34,623 nt of DNA from contig JAHFFP010000005.1 in assembly GCA_023247895.1 (NCBI GenBank), forward strand, positions 1 to 34,623. The letters are read 5' to 3'. This stretch comes from Candidatus Omnitrophota bacterium (lineage in GTDB: Bacteria; Omnitrophota; Gorgyraeia; Gygaellales; UBA12090). This document shows, piece after piece, positions 178 through 26,461 of this stretch (positions are counted from its first letter, which is position 1; every line of letters starts with the position of its first letter). A program made the translations under genes and the position numbers. Under the pieces are notes generated by a model. That model saw only the letters and a program-made list of their open reading frames with translations. It was not told the DNA's origin and did not search any database.

Positions 178-2085
178 ATGGCAGAAAATAAATTTTACGG
201 AGATAGTGCAACCCAGGAAATGCGCCAGGTTGCCGAAGATTTAAATATCCAGACTATCTGGGATAGAGAACTGATGCAGGAGCCTCATTGTGGTTTTGGC
301 ACGCTTGGAATCTGCTGCAAAAACTGTAACTTGGGCCCTTGCAGGATTGACCCTTTTAATCCTGACGGCCCCAAGGTGGGGGTGTGTGGTGCGGATGCGG
401 ATGTTATCTCTGCGCGTAATCTTCTTCGCCATATTACCGCCGGCGCCGGATGCCATAATGATCACGGCCGCGAGATTACCAAGACCTTTCTTATGACCGC
501 AAAAGGCGAGGCTCAGGGGTATAAAATTCAGGATGAGCAAAAACTAAAGGTAGTGGCACAGGAATACGGTATCACTATTGAAGGTAAAAGTGTTCAAGAT
601 ATTGCTATTGAATTGGGAAAGAAAATTTTTGCCGAATACGGCCAGCAGGAAGGAGAGCTTGCCCTTATCCAGCGCGCCCCCAAAAAACAAAAAGAGCTTT
701 GGCGAAAGCTCGGGGTAATGCCACGTGGCATAGATAGGGAAATCGTTGAGGCTTTAGCCAGGACTAATATGGGTGTGGACAATGACTATCGTTCGCTCAT
801 GCGTCATGGAATTAAAGTTGCCCTTGGCGACGGCTGGGGCGGCTCAATGATTGCGACCGAACTATCCGATATCCTCTTTCGTTCTCCGCGTCCTTTATCG
901 GGGCAGTCAAATCTTGGCGTATTTAAGGAAGATGAAGTGAATATCGGCGTTCACGGACATGTGCCGGTATTATCCGATATGATTGCTCAGGTGGCATCCG
1001 ACCCTGAGGTTTTAGCGTATGCCAAAACAAAAGGGGCGCATGGTATTGTTGTTGCGGGTATTTGCTGCACTGCCCTGGAGAGCCTGATGCGCCGAGGTAT
1101 GCCGGTTGCGGGAAATTTTCTGCAGCAGGAATTAGCCATCATTACCGGCGCGCTTGAGATGTTGATTGTGGATTTACAGTGTGTTTTGCCGTCGCTTCCC
1201 ACTATTGCAAGTAATTTCCACACTAAGGTTATCTCTACAAACCCAAGAGCCCATTTTCCTGGGACAGAATATATAGAATTCAAAGAAGAGAAAGGCTATG
1301 ATATTGCCAAAGAGATTATAAAGAAGGCAATAGATAATTTTCAGAACCGCAATAAGGCCAAGGTGCATATACCAAAGCAATCTGCGCCGCTCGTTCCCGG
1401 CTTTACCACTGAGTATGTCTTTGATATGTTAGGTGGTAAAACCCGTTTTACCTACAGGCCGCTCAATGATGGGATAATTATGGGAAGAATTCGAGGGATT
1501 GCCGGAGTGGTCGGCTGCGATAATCCCAAGATGCAAAGCGGCGAAAGCCATGTAAAACTGGTGAAAGAATTGCTTAAGAATGATGTCTTAGTGGTGCAGA
1601 CCGGTTGTGCCGCAACTGCCTGCGCCAAAGAAGAATTGTTGACTCCTGAGGCAGCGTTTAAATATGCGGGAAAAGGCCTTCAGGAAATCTGCGAAGCAGT
1701 GGGATGCCCTCCGGTGTTACATTTAGGGCCTTGCGTTGACAATTCCCGAATACTCACTGCTTGCTGTGAGATCGTCAAAGAAGGCGGTCTGGGAGTAGGG
1801 TTGGATGAGCTTCCGATTGCAGGCGCTGCTCCTGAGTGGATGTCGGAAAAGGCAATTGCCATTGGCTGGTACTTTGTGGCATCGGGGGCATTGGTAGTCT
1901 TTGGGACGCCGTATCCTTTGTACGGCTCAAAGAATTTAACTCACTTTGTCACTAAGGAAGTAGAAGAGTGGACCGGCGGAAGATGGGCATTTGAGCCTGA
2001 CCCAATGAAGATGGCCAAGATTATGATTGACCATATTAACGCAAAGCGAAAAGCCTTGAATTTGAGGCCGATGATGTACCAATAA
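178..2085 (+). CDS. cooS: anaerobic Ni-containing carbon monoxide dehydrogenase, catalytic subunit
   Basis: 635 aa; N-terminal Cys pattern CGFGTLGICCKNCNLGPCR (B/D clusters) and C-cluster-type motifs VHGHVP, GICCTALE, TGCAATAC, GPCVDNSR. Confidence 0.95.
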   Translation: MAENKFYGDSATQEMRQVAEDLNIQTIWDRELMQEPHCGFGTLGICCKNCNLGPCRIDPFNPDGPKVGVCGADADVISARNLLRHITAGAGCHNDHGREITKTFLMTAKGEAQGYKIQDEQKLKVVAQEYGITIEGKSVQDIAIELGKKIFAEYGQQEGELALIQRAPKKQKELWRKLGVMPRGIDREIVEALARTNMGVDNDYRSLMRHGIKVALGDGWGGSMIATELSDILFRSPRPLSGQSNLGVFKEDEVNIGVHGHVPVLSDMIAQVASDPEVLAYAKTKGAHGIVVAGICCTALESLMRRGMPVAGNFLQQELAIITGALEMLIVDLQCVLPSLPTIASNFHTKVISTNPRAHFPGTEYIEFKEEKGYDIAKEIIKKAIDNFQNRNKAKVHIPKQSAPLVPGFTTEYVFDMLGGKTRFTYRPLNDGIIMGRIRGIAGVVGCDNPKMQSGESHVKLVKELLKNDVLVVQTGCAATACAKEELLTPEAAFKYAGKGLQEICEAVGCPPVLHLGPCVDNSRILTACCEIVKEGGLGVGLDELPIAGAAPEWMSEKAIAIGWYFVASGALVVFGTPYPLYGSKNLTHFVTKEVEEWTGGRWAFEPDPMKMAKIMIDHINAKRKALNLRPMMYQ

Positions 2086-2173
2086 TAGCGTAGAGCGTTT
2101 AGCGCATAGCGGATAGACAGTAAATTTTCTATCCGCTAAACGCTATCCGCTAAACGCTATCCGCTATCCGCTA
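2086..2173. repeat. heptamer array A: two inverted arms of ~7-nt units (AGCGNNN ... inverse) around an AT-rich loop
   Basis: Left tagcgtagagcgtttagcgcatagcggataga, loop cagtaaattt, right tctatccgctaaacgctatccgctaaacgctatccgctatccgctat; central stem TAGCGGATAGA/TCTATCCGCTA (11 bp). Confidence 0.9.
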
Positions 2174-2174
2174 T

Positions 2175-2612
2175 ATGAAGAAGCTATATTACGATCCCAA
2201 AAAATGCACTGCCTGTAAGACCTGCGAGATTGTCTGCGCGATAGGTCATTCTCCTTCACAGGATTTATATACGGCAATACTTGAAGAAAACGTCGCTTTG
2301 CCTAGAGTGAGAGTCTCTGTGGGGAAGGAAGGCAATTTTCCTCTTGCCTGTAGGCATTGTAAGGACCATCCTTGTGTGAATGCCTGTATTGCCTCTGCCC
2401 TTACATACGACAAGGAAGAGGGGTTGCTTTTTGATAAGGAAAAATGTGTAGGTTGTTGGATGTGCATTATGGCTTGTCCTTATGGCGCGGTGCGCCATGA
2501 CAGCCGGAACAATAAATCGCAAAGGTGCGATCTTTGCGCGGATATTCATGACCCGCGCTGCGCCAAGAATTGCCCGACAAAGGCGATTGTTTATAGGGAA
2601 GAGAAGACATGA
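2175..2612 (+). CDS. 4Fe-4S ferredoxin-type electron transfer protein, CooF-like
   Basis: 145 aa; four Cys motifs (CTACKTCEIVC, CRHCKDHPCVNAC, CVGCWMCIMACP, CDLCADIHDPRCAKNCP), directly after cooS. Confidence 0.88.
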   Translation: MKKLYYDPKKCTACKTCEIVCAIGHSPSQDLYTAILEENVALPRVRVSVGKEGNFPLACRHCKDHPCVNACIASALTYDKEEGLLFDKEKCVGCWMCIMACPYGAVRHDSRNNKSQRCDLCADIHDPRCAKNCPTKAIVYREEKT

Positions 2613-3871
2613 AACATCTTCTTATAATCGGTAATTCCGCCGCAGGGATATCCTGCGCGGAGAATGTACGAAAGAAAGATAAAGAGATAAAAATAACCAT
2701 TCTCTCTAAGGAAGATTATACAGGGTATAATCGCTGCCTCATTTCGTATTATTTGGCAGGAGACATCAAAGAGGATAGGTTAGTGTATCGGGCAAAGGAT
2801 TTTTATAAAGATAACAATATTGAGCTTCTTCTTAACAAAAAAGCCGTACGCATAGATGCCAAAAAAAATCAGGTAGTGTTGGAAGACAAAAGCCGCTTGG
2901 ACTACGATATCCTGCTTTTATCCAATGGCGCATCCCCTAAATTCCCTCAAGATATTAAAGGTATTCAGAAAAAGGGCGTCTTCGGCTTTCGCACTATTTC
3001 TGATGCGAAGGAAATGCTGGATTTAGCCTTGGTAAGCCAAACCGCCTGTATCTTAGGAGGAGGCTTGATTGGTTTAAAGGCTGCCTACGGGCTTAAAAAA
3101 AGGAATTTGGATGTGAAAGTGATTGTCAAATCGTCCCAGGTTTTATCCCAGATTTTGGATAAAGAATCCTCTGAAATGTGTAAAAGGCGCCTTGTGGAGC
3201 ATGGGATTGATATTATGACCGGCGCCGATGTTCAGGAGATTATCGGAAACGGAGACTGCAAGGCGGTAAAATTAGATTCCGGTAAAGTGATAGCTTCTTC
3301 TATTGTGGTTGTGGGAAAGGGAGTGAAGCCTAACACGGAATTAATTGAGGATTCAGCCATAAAGCTCGCTGAAGGGATATTGGTTGATGAATATATGAAG
3401 ACGAATATTCCTAATATATACGCCGCAGGCGATATTGCCCAGGCGTATGATCCTATTTTAGAGGAAACTACCGTAAATGCCCTTTGGCCGAATGCCATTG
3501 AGCAGGGAATGGTTGTTGCAAGCAGCATCCTGGGCGAAAATAAGAAATATGGCGGTTCTGTGGGAATGAACTCGGTAGAATTCTTCGGCCTGCCGGTGAT
3601 TTCTTTTGGTATCACCCGAGCCCCGCAAGACGGCTATGAGGAAATTGTTTCTAGAGATGTACCCCAAAATATTTATAAGAAGGTTATCTTAAAGAATAAC
3701 GTTATTAAGGGGGCGATATTTGCCAGCAGGATTGAGAATATCGGCATACTGCTTAAGCTTGCGAAACTTAAGATTGATGTTTCAACGATAAAGGATACCC
3801 TGCTGAAGGCCGACTTTAATTTTTCCGTTACCAAAGATTTGCAATACGAGAAAGAAGAATTTTATCTATAA
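2609..3871 (+). CDS. FAD-dependent NAD(P)H oxidoreductase (CODH-associated FNOR-like)
   Basis: 420 aa; N-terminal dinucleotide fold LLIIGNSAAGISCAENV, second Rossmann motif CILGGGLIGLKAA, FAD motif NIYAAGDIAQ; overlaps the ferredoxin gene by 4 nt. Confidence 0.85.
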   Translation: MKHLLIIGNSAAGISCAENVRKKDKEIKITILSKEDYTGYNRCLISYYLAGDIKEDRLVYRAKDFYKDNNIELLLNKKAVRIDAKKNQVVLEDKSRLDYDILLLSNGASPKFPQDIKGIQKKGVFGFRTISDAKEMLDLALVSQTACILGGGLIGLKAAYGLKKRNLDVKVIVKSSQVLSQILDKESSEMCKRRLVEHGIDIMTGADVQEIIGNGDCKAVKLDSGKVIASSIVVVGKGVKPNTELIEDSAIKLAEGILVDEYMKTNIPNIYAAGDIAQAYDPILEETTVNALWPNAIEQGMVVASSILGENKKYGGSVGMNSVEFFGLPVISFGITRAPQDGYEEIVSRDVPQNIYKKVILKNNVIKGAIFASRIENIGILLKLAKLKIDVSTIKDTLLKADFNFSVTKDLQYEKEEFYL

Positions 3872-3891
3872 GGGTATGGAGGATTTGAAAA

Positions 3892-6072
3892 ATGTCTAAG
3901 ATTGTGGCGAGTGCGGCGATACGGGGAGCAAAGGCGATTGTCAAAGAGGCGGAAGATTTCTTGACTAAAGCCATTCAAGAAAAGAGCGCGGATACAAAAA
4001 TAGGTTTCCCTGAGACGGCATTCTTCCTACCGATGGCGAATGCGCTTTTGGGTGCGGAAGTTAAGACCCTGAATGAGGCAGTGCCCGTATTAAATTATGC
4101 CAAAAGCCTGCTGCCGCAAGTCCCAAAAGAAAAATTATGGCTTCCCTATCTTGGCGATGCTTTGGATGCGGGGATTGCGACTATGCTTTCAGAAGAGATA
4201 ATTATGGTGTTACGCTATCTTTATAATCAAGAGCCTCAAGCCGACTGTAATGGATTTTTTACCGATACTATTTTACGTTCTTTAGGAATTCAGCTTGTTG
4301 ACGGAAGGATGCCCGGTTTTGCCGCGATTTTAGGGGCAGCTCCCAGCAATGAGATTGCCGTTGAGATTGTGCGGCAGTTACAGGAAAGAAATATCCTGAT
4401 TTTTGTAGGCAGTTCATCAGGCGGGCGTTCCATTATTGACCAGCTTAAGGAATCCGGCGTTGAGATGGGCTGGGATAATTACATTGTTCCTTATGGCAGG
4501 GATACGGTGAGTGCAATTTATCCTCTGAATTGGGCAATACGTTCAGCAATGACCTTCGGCGGCCTCAAGGCAGGCCAAGCCAAGAAGTGTTTACTCTATA
4601 CCAAGGAACGTGTGTTTGCTTTTGGGTTGGCGTTAGGCTTAGTTGATGACTATAAGTATGCCACCGGCGCGGGGGCAATTAATATGGGTTTCCCGGTTAT
4701 CGCTGATACGGATATTCCAGAAATTAAACCTTCAGGAATTACCACTTATGAGGCTTTGGTAAAAGAGTTTGATTATAAAAAGATTGTCCCGCGTTGTATT
4801 GAGGTAAGAGGGGTTAAGGTAAAGGTTTCTAAGATCCCGATTCCTGTGCTTTATGGCGCTGCCTTTGAAGGCGAACGGGTCAGGCGCGAGCAGCTGTATG
4901 CAGAGTTTGGCGGAAAGTCCTCACAGGCGTTTGAGTTGATTACCACAAAGGATGGCGCCGAGATAGAGGATGGAAAGATAGAATTAATCGGGCCGGATAT
5001 TGACCAGCTGCCTGAAGGGAAGAAATCTCTTCCTCTTGGGGTATTGGTTGAGATTGCCGGAAGAAAGATGCAGAAAGAGTTTGAGCCTATCCTTGAGAGG
5101 CAATTACACAGATTCTTTAATTACAGTATGGGTGTTATGCATATCGGCCAGCGCGATATGAATTGGATACGTATCAGCAAGGATGCCTTTGCCAAGGGGC
5201 TTCGCCTGAAGCACTTGGGGATTGTGTTGCATGCAATGATTCATGAAGAATTCGGCGCTATTGCGGATAAGGTGCAGGTGAAACTTTTTACCAATGAAGC
5301 GGATGTGCAAAGAGAGCTTGTGCTTGCGCGAAAAGCATATGAAGATCGTGATGAGCGTTTAAGCGGAATGACTGATGAAAGCGTGGATACCTTTTACTCG
5401 TGTGAATTATGCCAGTCTTTTGCCCCTAATCATATTTGTGTTATTACGCCGGAAAAGGTTGGTTTATGCGGTGCCTATTCCTGGTTAGATACCAAGGCAG
5501 CCTATGAAATTTCACCAAGCGGCGGCAATAGGCCTATCCCTAAGGGCGAGTGTATAGATTCGGTTACGGGAGAATGGGCTTCAGTGAATGCCTATGTTAG
5601 TTTGCGCTCTAACCGGACCGTTGAGCGTTTTTCTATGTATTCTATTGTGAATAATCCTTCTACGTCGTGCGGCTGTTTTGAGTGTATTTTAGCGTTCGTC
5701 CCCGAGGCAAACGGGATTATGGTGGTACACCGTGATTTCGCGGGGATGACCCCCTGCGGGATGACCTTTACCACGCTTGCAGGCTCCGTCGGAGGAGGGA
5801 TACAAACTCCGGGATTTTTGGGTGTGGGGAAGATTTATTTAACCAGCAAGAAGTTTATCTCAGCTGATGGGGGCTTAAAAAGAATAATCTGGATGCCTAA
5901 AGAATTAAAAGAGTTGTTGGGCGAAAAATTAACCAAAAGGGCCCAGGAGATTGGAGTGCCTGATCTTATTGAGAAAATTGGGGATGAAACCGTTGCTACC
6001 ACTTCTGAAGAATTGATGCCATTTTTAGAGAAAGCAGGACACCCTGCGCTTACCATGCCGCCATTGATTTAA
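3892..6072 (+). CDS. acsB: CO-methylating acetyl-CoA synthase (ACS beta subunit)
   Basis: 726 aa; A-cluster motifs CELCQSFAPNHICVITPEKVGLCGAYSW and TSCGCFECI; SD GGAGG upstream. Confidence 0.95.
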   Translation: MSKIVASAAIRGAKAIVKEAEDFLTKAIQEKSADTKIGFPETAFFLPMANALLGAEVKTLNEAVPVLNYAKSLLPQVPKEKLWLPYLGDALDAGIATMLSEEIIMVLRYLYNQEPQADCNGFFTDTILRSLGIQLVDGRMPGFAAILGAAPSNEIAVEIVRQLQERNILIFVGSSSGGRSIIDQLKESGVEMGWDNYIVPYGRDTVSAIYPLNWAIRSAMTFGGLKAGQAKKCLLYTKERVFAFGLALGLVDDYKYATGAGAINMGFPVIADTDIPEIKPSGITTYEALVKEFDYKKIVPRCIEVRGVKVKVSKIPIPVLYGAAFEGERVRREQLYAEFGGKSSQAFELITTKDGAEIEDGKIELIGPDIDQLPEGKKSLPLGVLVEIAGRKMQKEFEPILERQLHRFFNYSMGVMHIGQRDMNWIRISKDAFAKGLRLKHLGIVLHAMIHEEFGAIADKVQVKLFTNEADVQRELVLARKAYEDRDERLSGMTDESVDTFYSCELCQSFAPNHICVITPEKVGLCGAYSWLDTKAAYEISPSGGNRPIPKGECIDSVTGEWASVNAYVSLRSNRTVERFSMYSIVNNPSTSCGCFECILAFVPEANGIMVVHRDFAGMTPCGMTFTTLAGSVGGGIQTPGFLGVGKIYLTSKKFISADGGLKRIIWMPKELKELLGEKLTKRAQEIGVPDLIEKIGDETVATTSEELMPFLEKAGHPALTMPPLI

Positions 6073-16600: not shown

Positions 16601-17167
16601 ATGATTTTAATGATTGATAACTATGACTCTTTTACCTACAACTTAGTCCAGTATTTGGGCGAGTTGGGGCAGAATCTTAAGGTATTTCGTAACGATAAGA
16701 TTTCTATAGAAAAAATCAGGAAACTCAAGCCTGAGAGGATTGCAATTTCTCCAGGCCCCGGAACGCCAAGTGACGCAGGGATATCAAAAGACGTTATCAG
16801 GGAATTTGCCGGTAAAATACCTCTCTTGGGAGTATGTTTAGGGCATCAATGTATTGGCGAGGTTTTCGGGGGAAAGATCATTCAGGCAAAGAAGCTTATG
16901 CACGGAAAAACCTCCATGATTTATCATAATGAAAAAGGGATTTTTCGAGGTATCCCTAACCCTTTTGAGGCAACGCGCTACCATTCCCTGCTTGTAGAAA
17001 GAAAAAGCTTACCCAATGCCCTCGAAATAACCGCGTGGACAAAGCAAAACGAGATTATGGGCCTAGAGCATAAGCAGTATCCTTTATTCGGGGTGCAGTT
17101 TCACCCTGAGTCTATCTTGACTAAAGAGGGAAAGAATATCCTTAAAAATTTCCTAAAAATAAAATAA
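16601..17167 (+). CDS. trpG: anthranilate synthase glutamine amidotransferase subunit
   Basis: 188 aa; [50 protein letters not shown]. Confidence 0.93.
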
Positions 17168-17222
17168 GTGTTGCCTACGGCGTATTGCGTATAAGGTAGA
17201 GCGTATTGTGTTAAACGATAAA
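17168..17222. repeat. degenerate single-arm heptamer array D in the trpG-trpD junction
   Basis: gcgtattgcgtataaggtagagcgtattgtgttaaacg: degenerate GCGTATT units. Confidence 0.5.
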
Positions 17223-17226
17223 AAGT

Positions 17227-18237
17227 ATGATTAAGGAAGCGATTAATCAGTTAGCCGAAAAAAAGAGCCTTACTCAAGTTCAAATGCAAAAGTCTGTGGA
17301 AGAGATTATGCGTGAGGCTGCTACTCCGGCCCAGATTGCCGCATTCTTAATGGCGCTGCGGATGAAGGGTGAAACCGTCGATGAAATTACCGGCGCCGCC
17401 AGAGCAATGAGGGAATTTGTAAAGCGGATACATGTTGCGGAGGATGTGGTGTTAGATACCTGCGGCACGGGTGGAGATATTAAACATACGTTTAACATTT
17501 CGACAATTTCAGCCTTTGTCGCCGCAGGATGCGGTTTGGTAGTTGCCAAGCACGGCAATAGGGCGGTATCCAGCCGTTGTGGAAGCGCTGACCTCTTAGA
17601 GGCATTAGGGGTAAACATTAATATTGACAAGCAGAAAGTGGAGGAGTGTTTAAAGAAAGTGGGTATAGGATTCTTGTTCGCCCAGAATTTGCATCCGGCA
17701 ATGAAGAGCGTCGCAGCCATACGTAAGGAATTAGGCCTACGAACTATCTTTAATCTCCTGGGGCCGTTAACCAACCCGGCGTTTGCCACGCATCAATTAT
17801 TGGGGGTATATGATCCGGCATTACTGAAAATTATGGCAAAGGTTCTGGGTAATTTAGGGATACGACACGCGATGGTCGTGCATGGGGCTGACGGCCTGGA
17901 TGAAATTACTACCACGGCAAAAACGCAAGCCTGTGAATTAAAGAATAAGAAGGTGCGCTGTTATACTCTTAACCCCTCGGAATTTGGAATCAAAAAAGCC
18001 CGGCTTAAAGATTTAGAGGGTGGAAACACGGATGATAACGCCCGTATTGCTTTAGCTATACTTCAGGGAGAAAAAGGGCCTAAACGGGATATCGTAGTAT
18101 TCAACGCAGGTTGTGCCGTATATACGGCGGACAAAACGAAGTCAATTAAAGAAGCCATACTCTTGGCAAAGGAAGCGATAAATTCAGGGAATGCGTTACG
18201 GAAGTTAGAGGGGTTGAGGGAGATTACGAACAGGTAG
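17227..18237 (+). CDS. trpD: anthranilate phosphoribosyltransferase
   Basis: 336 aa; DTCGTGGDIKHTFNIST, KHGNRAVSSRCGSADLLEALG. Confidence 0.95.
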   Translation: MIKEAINQLAEKKSLTQVQMQKSVEEIMREAATPAQIAAFLMALRMKGETVDEITGAARAMREFVKRIHVAEDVVLDTCGTGGDIKHTFNISTISAFVAAGCGLVVAKHGNRAVSSRCGSADLLEALGVNINIDKQKVEECLKKVGIGFLFAQNLHPAMKSVAAIRKELGLRTIFNLLGPLTNPAFATHQLLGVYDPALLKIMAKVLGNLGIRHAMVVHGADGLDEITTTAKTQACELKNKKVRCYTLNPSEFGIKKARLKDLEGGNTDDNARIALAILQGEKGPKRDIVVFNAGCAVYTADKTKSIKEAILLAKEAINSGNALRKLEGLREITNR

Positions 18238-18253
18238 GGATTAAAATATAAAA

Positions 18254-19108
18254 ATGGATTTTTTAAAAGAAGTATTATTAGAGAAGCAAAAGGCGGTAAA
18301 AGAGGCAAAACGGGTTTATCCTGAAGATGAACTGCGTAAGAAATTGGAGGAGCCGCGCATCTACAGGCCTTTTAAGCAGGCAATAAGCGAGCCGGGGAAA
18401 CTGCATATTATCGCTGAGATAAAAAAGGCTTCGCCGTCAGAAGGGCTGTTCAGGGAGCATTTTGACCCTGTCCAGATATCCCGGCTTTATCAAAATGCGG
18501 GGGTAAGCGCGGTATCTATTTTGACAGAAGAAAAATATTTTCAGGGAAAGATTGCCTATCTTAATCAAGTGCGTAAGATTATCGAACTGCCCATTTTAAG
18601 GAAGGATTTTATTTATGAGCCGTATCAGCTCTACGAATCTAAATTCTTTGGGGCTGACGCCGTGCTTTTGATTGCTGAAATTTTAAAAGAGGGAAAGCTT
18701 TCCGAGTTTCTTGCTTTAGCCAAAAGGCTTGAGCTGGATTGCCTGGTTGAAGTGGCCAGTAGAGTTGAACTTGCGTACGCGCTTACGCAAGGCTCTGAGA
18801 TTATCGGAATAAATAACCGCAATCTTCATAGCCTGGAGGTGGATACGAAATTAGCCGCCTCGTTAGTAAAAGATATTCCCGAAGGTAAGGTTATCGTGGC
18901 AGAGTCAGGGATCAAGACCCATCGCGAATATGAAGCTTATAAGAAACTCAAAATGAATGCCCTTTTAATCGGCAGTGCCTTTATGAAGGCAGAAGATATT
19001 AAACAAAAAATAAAAGAGGTTGTTGATGGCAAAGAGCCTAAAAAGAAGAAAACGGCTCAAAAGGTAAAACCTGAGAAAGTTAACCGCAAAAGGGCAAGCA
19101 AAAAGTGA
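18254..19108 (+). CDS. trpC: indole-3-glycerol phosphate synthase with Lys-rich C-terminal tail
   Basis: 284 aa; IAEIKKASPSEG, LRKDFIYEPYQLYES, IGINNRNLHSLEVD, VAESGI. Confidence 0.94.
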   Translation: MDFLKEVLLEKQKAVKEAKRVYPEDELRKKLEEPRIYRPFKQAISEPGKLHIIAEIKKASPSEGLFREHFDPVQISRLYQNAGVSAVSILTEEKYFQGKIAYLNQVRKIIELPILRKDFIYEPYQLYESKFFGADAVLLIAEILKEGKLSEFLALAKRLELDCLVEVASRVELAYALTQGSEIIGINNRNLHSLEVDTKLAASLVKDIPEGKVIVAESGIKTHREYEAYKKLKMNALLIGSAFMKAEDIKQKIKEVVDGKEPKKKKTAQKVKPEKVNRKRASKK

Positions 19109-19746
19109 TATCTCAACAGAAGGCGGAGAAGGCAAAGGTAAAGATTTGCGGAATAACTAACCTTGAGGATGCCCTCGCCGCTCAGGAAGCAGGCGCGGAC
19201 GCACTTGGCTTTGTGTTCTATCCTAAAAGCCCGCGATACATGAGGCCTCAAGGCGCGCGCAAAATCATTTCTTGCCTCAAGAAAAAAATCAAGAAAATCG
19301 GAGTCTTTGTCAATCCTTCGTTGCCATATGCCAGGCGCATTGCTTACTCTTGCTATTTGGATATGCTCCAGTTCCATGGGGAAGAGCCGGCGGCATTTTG
19401 CCAGAATTTCCCTGGATATAAGATAATTAAGGCATTTAGAATTAAAAATAAAGAGAGTTTAGAATCCCTTAAGGAATATAGAAGAGTTAATTATTATTTG
19501 TTCGATGCTTTTCATAAGGATGCCTTCGGAGGCACAGGGAGAAAATTCAAGTGGACGTTACTTAAGAACCTTCAAATTGAGAAGCCTTTTTTTCTCTCCG
19601 GAGGATTAACTATCCAAAATGTTGTTTTTGCGGTTAATGCCCTGCGTCCTGATTGGGTAGATGTTTCAAGTGGAGTGGAAGTGTCTATAGGAATTAAAGA
19701 TAAGAATTTGATAAAAGAATTTATTGCCAAGGTAAAGGGGACATGA
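19105..19746 (+). CDS. trpF: phosphoribosylanthranilate isomerase
   Basis: 213 aa, GTG start overlapping the trpC stop; VKICGITNLEDALAAQEAGADALGFVFYPKSPR, LSGGLTIQNV, VDVSSGVE. Confidence 0.94.
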   Translation: MISQQKAEKAKVKICGITNLEDALAAQEAGADALGFVFYPKSPRYMRPQGARKIISCLKKKIKKIGVFVNPSLPYARRIAYSCYLDMLQFHGEEPAAFCQNFPGYKIIKAFRIKNKESLESLKEYRRVNYYLFDAFHKDAFGGTGRKFKWTLLKNLQIEKPFFLSGGLTIQNVVFAVNALRPDWVDVSSGVEVSIGIKDKNLIKEFIAKVKGT

Positions 19747-21140
19747 CAGCAACTATTACTTTTTGCGGCGGGGTGCGTACGGTTACCGGCTCAAGCCATT
19801 TGCTTGAGGTGGAGGGAGAAAGGATAGTTATTGATTGCGGCTTATTCCAGGGCCATCGCGAAGAGTTCTATAAAATTAATTCACATTTTTGTTTTAACCC
19901 CGTATCAATTGATGCCCTTGTGACTTCGCACAGCCATATTGACCACTGCGGAAATCTGCCTAATGTGGTAAGAAATGGTTATAAAGGAAAGATTTTCGTT
20001 ACCAAACCTACCAGGGATCTTATGAAACTGATGCTTTTAGATAGCGCCAAGATTCAGGAGGAAGATATCAAGTTTGTAAATAAGATTAACGCCCGCAGGG
20101 GGCTCCCTCTTCGTCAGCCATTATACACCATTGAAGATGCCACGAAGGCATTAAAGAAACTCAGGGCAATGGATTATCGTAAGAAATTTAAGCTCACGCC
20201 CCATATCAGTTGCGCCTTTTATGACGCAGGGCATATCTTAGGTTCATCGATACCTCTTTTAGAGATGCGTTCTCATAATCAAACCATGCGAATGGCCTAT
20301 TGCGTTGATTTGGGGCGTAATGGTATCCCTTTGCTAGAAGATCCCGATATCTTGGAAAACATAGATTATCTTATTATTGAAAGCACCTACGGAGGAAGAG
20401 CCCATGAGTTAATTGCCGATGCCAAAATGCAGCTAGCAATGACTATTAATCGCACGCTAGAGCGGGGGGGGAAAGTAATCATTCCGGCGTTTGCCCTTGA
20501 GCGTACCCAGGAAGTAGTCTATTACTTGGGGCAGTTAATAAAGGAAAAAATAATTACACAGGTTCCTATATATGTAGATAGCCCTCTCGCTTGTAATATT
20601 ACGGATGTATTTATGGAAAATAGCGCAAGCCTTGACGATGAAGCTAAGAGCCTGATACGTAAAAAGGCCGATCCTTTCGGCCTTAATTCCATCCGCTATA
20701 TTCGAGATAATGAAGAATCAAAAAAGCTCAATTCTGATAAACAGCCGATGATTATTATTTCAACCTCCGGCATGTGCGAGTCAGGAAGAATCCTGCATCA
20801 TCTGCGCAATAATATTGAGGATGAGCGTAATACCATCGTGGTCGTTGGGTACATGGCAAAGAATACCCTTGGCAAAAGGATAGTTGAGCGCCATAAAAGG
20901 GTAAAGATTTTTGGCGAGAGTTTCGAGCTTAAGGCAGAGGTTGAGGTCATCAATGCCTTTAGCGCCCATGCGGATAAGAATGAATTGCTCGAGTATGTCC
21001 TAAAAACCAAAGGCAGGCTCAAGAAAATCTTTATTGTGCATGGGGATATGGACCAATCTGAGGCCTTGGCTTTGAACCTGAAGAATAACGGTTTCAATGC
21101 CTATATCCCTAAGAAGTTTGAAACTGTAGCATTACCTTAG
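19743..21140 (+). CDS. MBL-fold/beta-CASP RNA-processing exonuclease (COG1236-type)
   Basis: 465 aa; SHSHIDHCGNLP, DAGHILGSS, IIESTYGGR, ISTSGMCESGRILHHLRN, FSAHADKNELLEYV. Confidence 0.88.
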   Translation: MTATITFCGGVRTVTGSSHLLEVEGERIVIDCGLFQGHREEFYKINSHFCFNPVSIDALVTSHSHIDHCGNLPNVVRNGYKGKIFVTKPTRDLMKLMLLDSAKIQEEDIKFVNKINARRGLPLRQPLYTIEDATKALKKLRAMDYRKKFKLTPHISCAFYDAGHILGSSIPLLEMRSHNQTMRMAYCVDLGRNGIPLLEDPDILENIDYLIIESTYGGRAHELIADAKMQLAMTINRTLERGGKVIIPAFALERTQEVVYYLGQLIKEKIITQVPIYVDSPLACNITDVFMENSASLDDEAKSLIRKKADPFGLNSIRYIRDNEESKKLNSDKQPMIIISTSGMCESGRILHHLRNNIEDERNTIVVVGYMAKNTLGKRIVERHKRVKIFGESFELKAEVEVINAFSAHADKNELLEYVLKTKGRLKKIFIVHGDMDQSEALALNLKNNGFNAYIPKKFETVALP

Positions 21141-21190
21141 TATGCATAGAGGGCCTATTTGCTTTGGATTTTAGGAACCTATAAGGAGGC

Positions 21191-21219
21191 TTGAAAAAAG
21201 TTTATTTTTAAGGTATACT
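21191..21219 (+). promoter_or_regulatory. sigma70-type promoter for the candidate ncRNA
   Basis: TTGAAA - 17 nt - TATACT. Confidence 0.7.
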
Positions 21220-21225
21220 TTAATT

Positions 21226-21415
21226 AGGAAGGCAGAGAGAGAAGTAGAAGGTGGACTTTGAGGTATTCTGCTTTCCACCGGTAAAGGCAAGCCTCGAGAG
21301 TGAAGTAGAGGCGAAGCAGAGATGCAAGAAAACGAAGAAGGTGATGGAAAGGCTCACCTTTATCGGTAGTTTCTATGAGAATACGAAAGCACCCGATTTC
21401 TCGGGTGCTTTTTTA
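21226..21415 (+). ncRNA. candidate structured ncRNA or leader of unknown family
   Basis: Promoter plus terminator, no plausible ORF between; helices 21250-21255/21274-21279, 21267-21273/21314-21320, 21291-21295/21308-21312, 21338-21344/21354-21360 and 21278-21287/21357-21366. Confidence 0.65.
21386..21415 (+). terminator. intrinsic terminator
   Basis: aaagcacccga-tttc-tcgggtgcttttttatttt: perfect 9-bp GC-rich core stem followed by a T run. Confidence 0.88.
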
Positions 21416-21479
21416 TTTTAGGGGCAATGTATTTATGCTATACTTATCGAAGATGAAATATAATGAAATTAGGAAAACT

Positions 21480-22628
21480 ATGAAAAAACTTATTTTCTGC
21501 GTAAGTATCCTTACAGTACTGTTACTATCAATTTCTTATTCAATAAAGCCTTTAGTGTTATCTTTTGCTAAAGTAAAGATAAAAGATACCTTTAGCGCAA
21601 GCGCGGTTTCTATCCGGGATTGCGAAGTTAACCCTTTACGAGGAGTTGTCTTCTCCAATATAGAAATTAGACGAGGCAGTCTGTATGATTTTAAGCTACA
21701 AAAGCTAAAGATTGCATATGCGCTGCCGCATATAATCAAAGGTGCTATTTCAAAAGTATCTTTGGAAGGCGCAAGTATCAAAGTGAATATGGGAAATAAG
21801 GATATCCATGAATTCCTTACCTATTGCAACTTTTCTTCTAAAGGAACAGCTTTCTTCGTAGAGGCCTTAGAGTTGTCAGAACTAACGTTAGACATAAAGA
21901 GCGCTAATGTCAATATCGGCGCCCATGTTTCATTGGATTTTTCTTTGGCAAAACGCACTTTAGATTTTATTGATTTAGAAATTAGCCAATTTAATAATAA
22001 TAATATAAACGTGCAGGATTTGAGCTTAAACATAGGCCGTAATAAGGCTCTTCAAGGCCTTTATATAAGAGAAATAGGATACGACAAAATTAAGGTAAAA
22101 GAAGTTAAGTCAAGAGTGAATTATAACGCTGAAGCGATTGCATTTGATCCTTTATCTGCTGAAGTCTTAAAAGGGAAGATAAATGCGGTGGTGAATGTAA
22201 CCTTGGGAAAAACAATCGCCTACACCCTTGACTTGAAGGCGTGTAATCTGGACTTAGAGAATTTAGCCGAAGATTTGAGATTGGTTGAGAAATTTCAAAT
22301 GAGCGGAAAAGTGGGAGGAAGCCTTAAGGCTAAGGGGCAAGGGTTGGCAATAAGTATTATTGAAGGAGCATTTTCCATAACAGAGCCTGGCGGTGTCTTG
22401 AGTATTAAGGATAAAAAGGTTATTGAAAACATCGCACGAAGCTCCAAAATGCCCTACGAGATATTAGTAGAAGGTTTTAAGAATTACCGCTATAATAATG
22501 GAAAGGTTGCTTTGGCGTTACAAGGAAGCGATGTGGTTCTCTCTGCCGCTTTTGAGGGAGATGCGGGGAATCGTGGTTTTGATATCAGATGGCATAATCC
22601 CGGATTTTTCAATATAGGAAAGGAGTAG
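21480..22628 (+). CDS. AsmA/YdbH-like envelope protein with N-terminal membrane anchor
   Basis: Start revised to ATG 21480 (MKKLIFCVSILTVLLLSISYSIKPLV, SD AGGA); AsmA-like beta-rich repeats; C-terminal LVEGFKNYRYNNGKVALALQGS resembles YdbH C-terminal segments. Confidence 0.65.
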   Translation: MKKLIFCVSILTVLLLSISYSIKPLVLSFAKVKIKDTFSASAVSIRDCEVNPLRGVVFSNIEIRRGSLYDFKLQKLKIAYALPHIIKGAISKVSLEGASIKVNMGNKDIHEFLTYCNFSSKGTAFFVEALELSELTLDIKSANVNIGAHVSLDFSLAKRTLDFIDLEISQFNNNNINVQDLSLNIGRNKALQGLYIREIGYDKIKVKEVKSRVNYNAEAIAFDPLSAEVLKGKINAVVNVTLGKTIAYTLDLKACNLDLENLAEDLRLVEKFQMSGKVGGSLKAKGQGLAISIIEGAFSITEPGGVLSIKDKKVIENIARSSKMPYEILVEGFKNYRYNNGKVALALQGSDVVLSAAFEGDAGNRGFDIRWHNPGFFNIGKE

Positions 22629-22631
22629 GCA

Positions 22632-23216
22632 ATGAAGATGATTTTTCTGATGCTTTGGGCATTCGCAATGGCTTTTGGCTGTGCAAGGATAAAGGTAGAA
22701 GCTCCTAAGGAGCCGATAAAGATGGATATCTCGATGCGCCTCGATATTTATCAGCATGTGGCCAAGGATATTGATAATATTGAGGATATGATTTCAGGCC
22801 CTTCAAAACAAACAAAACCAAATAATTCCCAGAGTAAGTTGTTTGATTATCTTATGCCTTGTGCTTATGCCCAGGAGGCCTTAAGCCCTGAAATAGAAGC
22901 CGCGGTATCCGGGCGTAAACAGAGGCGCGCGGAATTAGTAACTTGGGAGCAAAAAGGCGTGGTGGGAGAAAATAGCTTAGGCTTGGTGGTGATAATGGCC
23001 TCTGAAAGCGTGGATGGTTTGGTAAAGGAATTAGTGAATGCCGAAAATAGCGATCGAATGGTTATTTATCAGTCGGTGTCAAAGAAGAATAATGTCCCTA
23101 TAGAAGAGGTGCAAAGATTATACGCTAAACGCCTTCAGGATGACGCACCGGCAGGTACGCCGATAGAGATTTTAAGCGAGAAGAGCGTAACCTATGAGTG
23201 GGCAATAAAAAAATAG
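22632..23216 (+). CDS. YnbE-like lipoprotein fused to YdbL-like (DUF1318) domain
   Basis: 194 aa; N-terminal GCARIKVEAPKEPIKMDISMRLDIYQHVAKDIDNIE (YnbE-type) and C-terminal GVVGENSLGLVVIM..VDGLVKELVNAENSDRMVIYQSVSKKNNVPIEEVQRLYAKRL (YdbL-type). Confidence 0.7.
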   Translation: MKMIFLMLWAFAMAFGCARIKVEAPKEPIKMDISMRLDIYQHVAKDIDNIEDMISGPSKQTKPNNSQSKLFDYLMPCAYAQEALSPEIEAAVSGRKQRRAELVTWEQKGVVGENSLGLVVIMASESVDGLVKELVNAENSDRMVIYQSVSKKNNVPIEEVQRLYAKRLQDDAPAGTPIEILSEKSVTYEWAIKK

Positions 23217-23251
23217 GAAGGAAGATAACGGTTAGCTTATATGGTTATCAA

Positions 23252-23279
23252 TTGCAAAGTTTACATGGTCTGTTATAAT
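23252..23279 (+). promoter_or_regulatory. extended -10 sigma70-type promoter upstream of the HtpX-like gene
   Basis: TTGCAA - 16 nt - TATAAT, with TGT immediately before the -10. Confidence 0.65.
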
Positions 23280-23398
23280 GGGTAAAAAATACGTTACATG
23301 GTTATGGAGCGGGAAACGTTTGAAGGTGAACGTTGAAGGCAGGAAATAAACAAGCCTACGTAACCGTTTGACGAATATGACGTAAGGAAGGAGTAGAA

Positions 23399-24373
23399 AT
23401 GTCATTAGCCGGTTTAAAATTAAGAATGGCGCTTTTAGTAGCTATTCTCTTTAGTATTGTATATGGTATCGTGGTTGCGGTGGGATATTCTTTAGGTATA
23501 GCCAATTTTTGGTTTTACCTTTTCATATCGTTGGTGATGCTTTTTATCCAATATATGGTTGGCCCAAAACTTATTGAGTGGAGTATGCGTATAAGATATG
23601 TAAACGAGCCGGAATATCCGCAGCTTTATGCAATAGTAGGTGATTTAGCCGTCAAAGCAAAAATACCCATGCCAAAAATTGGGATTGCGGATGTGGCTGT
23701 TCCTAATGCCTTTGCCTTTGGCCGTTGGAAGAGCGATGGGAGAGTGTGCGTTACCAGAGGGATTATGAGTTTGTTGAGTGAAGATGAACTGCGCGCAGTG
23801 TTAGGCCATGAGATTTCGCATCTTAAAAATAGGGATGTGCTTACGATAACCTTGCTTTCAGTTATCCCGATAGTCTTATACAGAATTGCCATAAGCACGC
23901 TGTATTACGGAGGCAATCGCAGGCGAGAGGGAGGTAGTAATGCTGCCTATATCGGTATGGCGGCAATGCTTTTCTATTTTATTACCAATCTCTTGGTCTT
24001 GTACGCCTCAAGGATTAGAGAGTATTTTGCTGATAGGGGTGCGGTGGGGTTAGGGTGCGCGCCTAAGAATTTGGCTTCTGCATTATACAAACTGGTGTAT
24101 GGATCAGCAAGAATGGATAAAGAAAGTTTGAGAGAGGTGGAAGGGCTCAAAGCCTTTTTTGCCAATGACCCTTCTCGGGCGCTTAATGAAATCAAGGAAT
24201 TGCGGCAAGTGGATTTGGATAAGTCAGGGACTATCGATGCAAGCGAATTAGCAGCCTTAAGCAAAAAACAATTGAAGGTCGGTTTTGCCGAAAGGCTTTT
24301 AGAGATAATGAGCACCCATCCGAATATGCTCAAAAGGATCAAACAATTGTCAACATACAAAATAGGAACATAA
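23399..24373 (+). CDS. htpX: M48 zinc metalloprotease, HtpX-like, with C-terminal EF-hand loop
   Basis: 324 aa; LGHEISHLKNRDV (HExxH), membrane segments, REYFADRGAV; DLDKSGTIDASE near the C-terminus; SD AGGAG. Confidence 0.87.
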   Translation: MSLAGLKLRMALLVAILFSIVYGIVVAVGYSLGIANFWFYLFISLVMLFIQYMVGPKLIEWSMRIRYVNEPEYPQLYAIVGDLAVKAKIPMPKIGIADVAVPNAFAFGRWKSDGRVCVTRGIMSLLSEDELRAVLGHEISHLKNRDVLTITLLSVIPIVLYRIAISTLYYGGNRRREGGSNAAYIGMAAMLFYFITNLLVLYASRIREYFADRGAVGLGCAPKNLASALYKLVYGSARMDKESLREVEGLKAFFANDPSRALNEIKELRQVDLDKSGTIDASELAALSKKQLKVGFAERLLEIMSTHPNMLKRIKQLSTYKIGT

Positions 24374-24376
24374 TTA

Positions 24377-24447
24377 TGGGTCTATAGTCCATGGTCAATA
24401 GTCGATAGAAAGATTAAGGAAGGCTATAGCCTATTGATTATCGACCC
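24377..24447. repeat. heptamer array F between htpX and trpB
   Basis: gggtctatagtccatggtcaatagtcgataga ... ggctatagcctattgattatcgaccc; inverted arms, 7-nt units. Confidence 0.88.
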
Positions 24448-24464
24448 TTATATTTTTAATAAAT

Positions 24465-25655
24465 ATGCTACCAGATAAATCAGGCCATTTTAACGGTTTT
24501 GGGGGGAAGTTTGTTCCTGAAGTGTTGATGTCCGCACTTTCTGAGCTTGAAAAAGAATACCAAAAGGCGAAGAAGGATAAGGCATTTAGAAAGGAGCTGG
24601 AGTATTACCTTTCTTGTTATTGTGGAAGGCCTACCGCGCTTTATCCTGCCCGTAATTTAAGCAAGGCGTTAGGTGGGAAATTACGAATTTATCTTAAACG
24701 CGAAGACTTGTTGCATACCGGAGCGCACAAGATAAATAATACAATAGGCCAGGCTTTGCTTGCCTTGCGCATGAAGAAGCCTCGGGTGATTGCTGAAACA
24801 GGGGCAGGCCAGCACGGAGTAGCTACGGCTACCGTGGCAGCGCTTTTTGGTTTAGCGTGTGATATCTTTATGGGTGAAGAAGATATTGTGCGCCAGGAAT
24901 TAAACGTCTTCCGTATGAAACTCTTAGGTGCGAGAGTGATTCCCGTTACCGCAGGAAGCAAGACCCTAAAAGATGCGATGAATGAGGCAATCCGCGATTG
25001 GGCAACCAATGTGCGTCATACCCACTACATTATTGGTTCAGTGGCAGGGCCTCATCCTTATCCTATGATGGTGCGGGATTTTCAATCGATAATCGGCAAA
25101 GAGGCAAAACAGCAGATTCTGGAAATGGAAGGGCGACTGCCGGATTATTTGGTTGCTTGCGTGGGAGGCGGCAGCAATGCCATGGGTTTGTTCCATTCCT
25201 TCTTTAGGAATAGGCAAGTGAAATTTATCGGAGTTGAGGCAGCAGGTTTAGGGCTGCATACTTCGCATTATGCGGCGACTTTAACTAAAGGAAGGGTGGG
25301 AGTGCTGCACGGCTCAAAAAGCAAGGTGCTTCAAGATAAAGACGGCCAGATTGCTATTGCTCACTCAATAGCTGCCGGGTTAGATTATCCCGGGGTAGGC
25401 CCTGAACATAGTTATTATCAAAAGATAAAGCGCTCTGAGTACGTAAGCGTGGCTGATAGCCAAGCCTTAGAAGGCCTAAAGTTGCTTTCAGAGAGTGAAG
25501 GCATTATCCCTGCGCTTGAAACTGCCCATGCGGTATATTATCTTAAGGAATTAGTCAAGAAAGTAAAATCAAAGAAGATTGCCATACTTTGTCTTTCAGG
25601 CAGGGGCGATAAGGATATCGGGATAGTCAGGCAGCATATCAAATTCCGGGTGTAA
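24465..25655 (+). CDS. trpB: tryptophan synthase beta chain
   Basis: 396 aa; [64 protein letters not shown]. Confidence 0.96.
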
Positions 25656-25672
25656 TGTATGGGCTATAGGTA

Positions 25673-26461
25673 ATGAACAGAATTGACGCAAAGTTTAAAG
25701 AATTACAATCTAAGGGTAAGAAGGCGCTTGTTGTTTATATCACCTGCGGATATCCCGATATAGCTATCACTGAAAAGTTGGTTTTTGAGCTTGCTAAAAG
25801 AGGCGTGGATATTATTGAGTTAGGGGTGCCTTTTTCCGACCCTCTTGCGGACGGCCCCATGATTCAGGAGGCCTCTGCGTATGCCTTAAAAAAGAAAATC
25901 AATCTTCATCATATCTTTTCCTTGGTCAAGCGCATAAGGGCAAAAAGCCAGATTCCTCTTTGCCTCATGGGCTATTATAATCCTGTATTTTCTTTTGGAC
26001 AGGTTAATTTTGTCAACGAGGCAATAGTCAGCGGAGTTGATGGGGTAATCATCCCTGACCTTCCGCCTGAAGAAGACCTTTGGTTAGTTTCTTTAGCTAA
26101 AAAGGCAAGCCTAAAAACTATCTTTTTTCTCTCTCCCACGAGTTCTTTAGAGCGGATAAAATATATCAGTAAAGTTTCAACCGGTTTTATTTATTATGTT
26201 TCACTCACCGGGGTAACCGGAGCAAGGCAGGCCTTGCCTGAGGATTTAAAACAGAACATCACAATGATTAAACACTATACCAAAAAGCCTGTATGTGTTG
26301 GTTTTGGCATATCTAATGCCCAGCACGTGAAAGAAGTCCTGAGAATTGCAGATGGGGCAATTGTGGGAAGCGCAATAATGAAGGTGATAAAAGATACTAT
26401 GGGTAAGGGGAATGTAGTCGAAAAAATAGGAGCCTTTACAAGGAGTTTAAGAAATGTATGA
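25673..26461 (+). CDS. trpA: tryptophan synthase alpha chain
   Basis: 262 aa; VVYITCGYPD, IELGVPFSDPLADGPMIQEAS, GVIIPDLPPEE, YYVSLTGVTGARQ. Confidence 0.95.
   Translation: MNRIDAKFKELQSKGKKALVVYITCGYPDIAITEKLVFELAKRGVDIIELGVPFSDPLADGPMIQEASAYALKKKINLHHIFSLVKRIRAKSQIPLCLMGYYNPVFSFGQVNFVNEAIVSGVDGVIIPDLPPEEDLWLVSLAKKASLKTIFFLSPTSSLERIKYISKVSTGFIYYVSLTGVTGARQALPEDLKQNITMIKHYTKKPVCVGFGISNAQHVKEVLRIADGAIVGSAIMKVIKDTMGKGNVVEKIGAFTRSLRNV

Follow-up and report, generated by a model that had tools for sequence, protein, structure and literature searches.

What does a metagenome-assembled genome (MAG) of the Omnitrophota (G000) encode between the gene for an MBL/beta-CASP/RMMBL protein and that for an AsmA/YdbH-like protein, where a promoter and a terminator enclose about 190 nt? 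A preliminary description of the window (the whole 34,623-nt stretch of a G000 contig analysed here) had recognized a structured orphan unit without a convincing reading frame, whose helices exclude one another, and had left the choice between a small RNA and a terminator-controlled leader of the envelope genes downstream. The orphan unit is borne out by our analysis, and a separate small RNA appears to be its most likely role. We propose, with a probability of about 0.7, that it is an orthologue of a stand-alone c-di-GMP-I RNA, which has lost its aptamer and would now act as a separate, ligand-blind small RNA.

A predicted transcription unit with competing helices

The promoter and the strong terminator lie where they had been described (Table 1). 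Taken only as matches to a consensus they carry little weight: the 4 kb scanned contain 14 promoter-like sites and one terminator, where shuffles give 10.1 and 3.1. That promoter, competing helices and terminator all recur in homologues indicates that the transcription unit is real. The copy in G001, a member of the same genus, is 84% identical to the window across the promoter (45 nt) and 78% identical across the 3' 92 nt of the RNA; the promoter is conserved also in G005 and G007 and in the wider class introduced below, and a homologous terminator follows all five family copies. In G004 the -35 element is TTGCTT, a poor match to the consensus, in a promoter otherwise common to the family members. 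The RNA is presumably transcribed, with a start near 21226 predicted from the promoter, and its fold (21226-21416) scores better than every shuffle (z = -4.4).

Table 1. Features of the RNA locus and its neighbours (positions in the window)
Feature	Positions	Strand	Remarks
MBL/beta-CASP/RMMBL protein	19743-21140	+	upstream neighbour, syntenic in G004
RNA promoter	21191-21219	+	-35 TTGAAA 21191-21196, 17-nt spacer, -10 TATACT 21214-21219; consensus match, conserved in homologues
Predicted RNA, ~190 nt	21226-21416	+	promoter-to-terminator span, fold z, R1 match
5' hairpin	21227-21276	+	11 bp, 21227-21237/21266-21276; pair probabilities mostly >0.97
5' arm	21277-21287	+	ACCGGTAAAGG; formerly the 5' strand of the c-di-GMP-I aptamer, class consensus GCCGATAAAGG
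Collapsed aptamer region	21288-21332	+	5-bp remnant stem 21291-21295/21308-21312
Linker hairpin	21337-21361	+	21337-21344/21354-21361; alternative state sequestering the 3' arm
3' (anti-aptamer) arm	21357-21367	+	CCTTTATCGGT; pairs with 21277-21287
Intrinsic terminator	21385-21420	+	12-bp stem 21385-21412 and U tract TTATTTTAG
Promoter of the next gene	21436-21455	+	extended -10 TGCTATACT 21436-21444, ATG 21453 8 nt on; apparently leaderless
AsmA/YdbH-like protein	21453-22628	+	downstream neighbour; weak Pfam match below cut-off
DUF1318 lipoprotein-like protein	22632-23216	+	downstream neighbour
HtpX-like M48 peptidase	23399-24373	+	syntenic marker

All four pairings named in the preliminary description are present in the sequence. 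The longest of them, given there as 10 bp (21278-21287/21357-21366), was found to comprise 11 bp, formed by the arms ACCGGUAAAGG and CCUUUAUCGGU. It had also been regarded as a pseudoknot across a pairing of 21267-21273 with 21314-21320; however, this topology is not required, because 21267-21273 is held far more stably in the 5' hairpin, beside which the long arm pairing nests cleanly. On the other hand, the long pairing does compete with 21338-21344/21354-21360, as postulated, and this competition is conserved throughout the class; the linker hairpin of the window has a z of -3.5 against shuffled linkers. The two states of the window RNA differ by only about 1.2 kcal/mol (-44.1 vs -42.9 kcal/mol), and by 0.9 kcal/mol in both G005 and G007. 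The terminator stem is overlapped by none of the competing helices. We picture an RNA whose promoter and terminator would make it a transcript distinct from those of the surrounding genes, and that would be closed when the 3' arm forms the long-range helix with the 5' arm, or open when the 3' arm pairs instead within the adjoining linker.

Rfam searches at the gathering threshold returned no family in the window, 6S, SRP, RNase P and tmRNA included, and at relaxed thresholds the best sub-threshold matches were shared terminator hairpins only. The c-di-GMP-I model (RF01051, gathering threshold 35 bits) gives no match in the window RNA, and none of its weak matches in G000 falls at the locus. 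A search of the G000 genome for 6S gave no match, and a search for similarity to phages gave none either. A short open reading frame from the AUG within AAGGUGAUG (26 codons in the window) was considered and rejected: the AUG that follows the hairpin opens different reading frames in the homologues (in G248 it is reduced to AUG-UAA), so that the RNA is not coding.

Neighbouring genes and the leader model

The idea that the RNA is a terminator-controlled leader, switched by the competing helices, draws on two features: the RNA immediately precedes the AsmA-like gene, in the same orientation, and it ends in a terminator. For the window we consider this model unlikely, because the switch helices leave the terminator untouched and the AsmA-like gene is served by a separate, apparently leaderless promoter; the G001 orthologue of AsmA possesses the same promoter, more than 200 nt from the RNA terminator. 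Nor is the downstream gene conserved: in the wider class it varies by family and mostly has a promoter of its own (TGNTATAAT about 8 nt before the ATG), with AsmA-like proteins in the window's genus, GH1-like proteins (as judged from translations) in family f3, and a protein of 100 aa in several other families. A specific tie of the RNA to the AsmA gene was rejected, as G002 contains an AsmA orthologue without the RNA. In G005 and G007, however, only about 6 nt, without an apparent promoter, separate the U tract from the ATG of a response-regulator gene, which speaks for the leader model, and a cis role is possible in these two genomes.

With respect to the small protein, it is conserved after the RNA at L215, L221, L222 and L226, where it has about 100 aa (MSQKLIRVYHELDLQEVTDHLLVYGDLSGACAHC...) and an apparently leaderless TATAAT promoter. 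In the window the trp genes are split into trpG/trpD/trpC/trpF (16601-19746) and trpB/trpA (24465-26461), which flank the MBL gene, the RNA and the AsmA-like, DUF1318 and HtpX genes (16601-26461 in all), an order partly kept in G004. Farther upstream (178-6072) there are genes whose translations resemble a carbon monoxide dehydrogenase/acetyl-CoA synthase cluster.

Orthologues with and without the aptamer

When 58 related genomes were searched at the DNA level, G001 and G007, the latter from the same family, proved to contain the promoter together with the 3' third of the RNA; in G005 the promoter was detected. A pattern of the hairpin and the 3' arm confirmed these three genomes and added G248 and G257 from a sister family, with no match for the reversed control; in the two additional copies a c-di-GMP-I aptamer is found between the arms, scoring 51.7 and 51.9 bits with RF01051, above the Rfam cut-off. 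An exact pattern scan of genome contigs gave 41 matches, of which three are G001, G005 and G007, and the other 38, scattered over unrelated taxa, were taken as chance. The covariance model R1, built from 15 compact members of the class, matches the window at 21277-21367 with 28.5 bits (E = 1.4e-4, R1 E-values being rough) and with the aptamer interior deleted; the next-best site in the window scores 14.7 bits, about 14 bits lower. The window, G005 and G007 reach 28.5-30 bits through the arms alone, and G001 reaches 29 bits.

The connection is provided by G004, from another genus of the same family, which has an aptamer-bearing copy (87.7 bits with R1; 30.3 bits with RF01051, below the cut-off) located between the MBL orthologue and htpX, in the order trpC-trpF-MBL-RNA-...-htpX-trpB, as in the window. 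The core of the c-di-GMP-I aptamer (P2 with its GNRA loop, the GACGCAAAGC junction, P3 and the closing GGGTTGCC strand) is present in G004 and in the parent class, partial in G001, and absent in the window, G005 and G007; the window interior contains neither the GCAAAGC core nor the 3' GGGTTGCC strand. G001 retains GCAAAGCCTCAGGCCTAAA and the AAGCCGTA...GAGGCA part of P3, while the closing strand is gone. RF01051 gives no match at E <= 0.1 on the loci of G001, G005 and G007; at the exact locus of G001 its score is 14.1 bits. The homology, the synteny and the loss of the aptamer are direct results of these comparisons. On the synteny of G004 and the intermediate state of G001 rests our identification of the window RNA as the syntenic orthologue of a free-standing GEMM (c-di-GMP-I) RNA; because the aptamer has been lost, we file it as a derived orthologue rather than as a full member. 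The earlier failure to match it to common riboswitches is correct for the window copy itself, but overlooks where the RNA came from: its orthologues carry the c-di-GMP-I aptamer. The G000 genome has two good c-di-GMP-I elements at other loci.

Of the genera in the window's family, g1 and g5 have lost the aptamer. In the sampled genomes of g2 and g3 no copy of the RNA turned up, MAGs being incomplete, and no remnant of it in their htpX region. The simplest history would be that the aptamer, and here and there the whole RNA, disappeared within this family. Such a distribution, with the aptamer intact in g4 only, partial in G001 and gone in G000, G005 and G007, is also what one would see if the stand-alone RNA were decaying in the family and the window copy were a transcribed but functionless relic, to which we assign roughly one chance in five. 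This possibility is opposed by the pattern of conservation: the interior is unalignable and unconserved between G000, G001 and G005/G007, whereas the promoter, both arms, the linker hairpin and the terminator are conserved between g1 and g5, and the 3' part of the RNA is as similar between G000 and G001 as stated above. Moreover, the arm changes in G001 and in the window all keep pairing. In the window the outer pair is A21277-U21367 in place of the G-C of the class, a compensatory change, and an inner A-U has become G-U, so that the two arms still pair even as the former 5' strand of the aptamer changes in sequence. That the ends are conserved and the interior is not argues for a retained function.

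Could that function be the sensing of c-di-GMP, or of another ligand, by a drastically shortened aptamer? The short remnant stem stands where P2 was, and the bistable platform is kept; nevertheless, the interior is not conserved among G000, G001 and G005/G007, no Rfam riboswitch matches it, and we regard such a sensor as very improbable. We favour a ligand-blind small RNA: in the window's lineage it would no longer respond to c-di-GMP by the known mechanism, and would be constitutive or triggered otherwise. The 5' hairpin, which separates the 5' arm from the start site, is an addition peculiar to the family; G004 likewise has a hairpin at this position, of unrelated sequence.

A class of stand-alone c-di-GMP-I RNAs in Omnitrophota

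In the order to which the window belongs, c-di-GMP-I elements above the cut-off occur in 118 of 128 genomes. A pattern of the promoter and the 5' arm gave 52 matches in 48 of the 128 genomes (13 for the reversed control), about 40 of which form one coherent class with the layout TTGAAA-17-TATACT, 6-8 nt, GCCGATAAAGG, c-di-GMP-I aptamer, linker, CCTTTATCGGC and terminator. The members are spread across many families, mostly measure about 120-280 nt from arm to arm, and often have large insertions in P2 and P3. R1 matches 101 of 386 sampled genomes of the phylum at E <= 1e-12 (about a quarter), almost always in one copy; outside the order, about four of the 25 matches examined resemble ordinary c-di-GMP-I leaders.

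The arm helix is 98.6% paired across the 52 aligned matches, although the pattern used to assemble the initial class set included the 5' arm, so that the arm invariance in A1 and A2 is partly by construction, a selection bias that the A3 and R1 searches lessen but do not remove. In the 25 matches from other families of the phylum the helix is 97% paired, far above slid and shuffled controls, and double changes are found at six of the 11 arm pairs; the arms covary. Other c-di-GMP-I copies in the same genomes mostly lack such arms, with nine of 38 reaching 10-11 of 11 pairs in a free search. In 26 of the 39 members tested, the linker hairpin folded better than did shuffled linkers (p <= 0.05).

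The window copy has in common with the parent class the 5' strand, the linker, the anti-aptamer arm and the layout of promoter and terminator: its 5' arm resembles GCCGATAAAGG and is complementary over 11 bp to a 3' arm of the CCTTTATCGGC type, a linker hairpin competes for the 3' arm, and the predicted TTGAAA-17-TATACT promoter, its own terminator and a separate promoter of the next gene are all present. It departs from the class in the lack of the aptamer between the arms and in the distance from the -10 element to the 5' arm, 57 nt rather than 6-8 nt, a 5' extension common to the window's family including the aptamer-bearing G004. RF01051, represented above its cut-off by G248 and G257, does not match the window RNA, which is without the aptamer core. 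The class itself differs from RF01051 in being a predicted separate transcript, not an evident leader of a single gene, and in having a 3' arm complementary to the extreme 5' end. From general knowledge of c-di-GMP-I aptamers and from the mutual exclusivity of the helices we infer that the aptamer-bearing relatives bind c-di-GMP, which would take the 5' strand and thereby favour the open state.

This Omnitrophota-wide family of free-standing, presumably c-di-GMP-sensing RNAs is previously undescribed; a literature search without most subscription journals found no paper joining Omnitrophota or Omnitrophica with riboswitches. The closest precedent found is merRNA of Bdellovibrio bacteriovorus, a free-standing non-coding RNA of 445 nt with a c-di-GMP-I element and no conserved downstream gene; those who described it saw it conserved nowhere beyond the Bdellovibrio lineage and proposed that it serves as a c-di-GMP reservoir (PMC3627812). 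The Omnitrophota class is likewise free-standing and without a conserved downstream gene; however, it is mostly shorter, spans many families and has a bistable end, and the window copy differs further in having lost the aptamer. It is tempting to speculate, at somewhat less than even odds, that the class comprises conserved, single-copy sensors or reservoirs akin to merRNA, with a bistable closing helix, and that in the window's family they became ligand-blind small RNAs with another input. Omnitrophota, like Bdellovibrio, have been proposed to include predators or parasites (PMC10066038), a parallel that is worth testing and proves nothing.

The phylum-wide class, with about one copy per genome, offers a comparative handle on the roles of such RNAs, and its aptamer-less orthologues with conserved ends constitute a natural experiment: should the RNA function in the absence of its sensor, mere storage of c-di-GMP would not account for its role. 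To our knowledge, riboswitches other than gene leaders have rarely been described.

Several of the c-di-GMP-I RNAs exhibit peculiarities of their own. At L128, L165, L067 and L034 a hairpin-like sequence around CCCCGTTAGAAATAACGGGG / TTTCTAACGGGG is repeated within the P2 region, as if a small palindromic repeat had been inserted into the c-di-GMP-I aptamer. A P3 insertion module resembling AAGCCGTATCC...GGATAGTTAGGCA is found in many members (L126, L129, L137, L164, L202, L008) and kept in G001 despite the broken aptamer; it is possibly a tertiary-contact motif. Finally, at L213-L216, L220, L223, L233 and L225, from other families, the 3' arm runs directly into the U tract, so that the arm helix itself could be the terminator stem there, in contrast to the window's family, where the two are separate.
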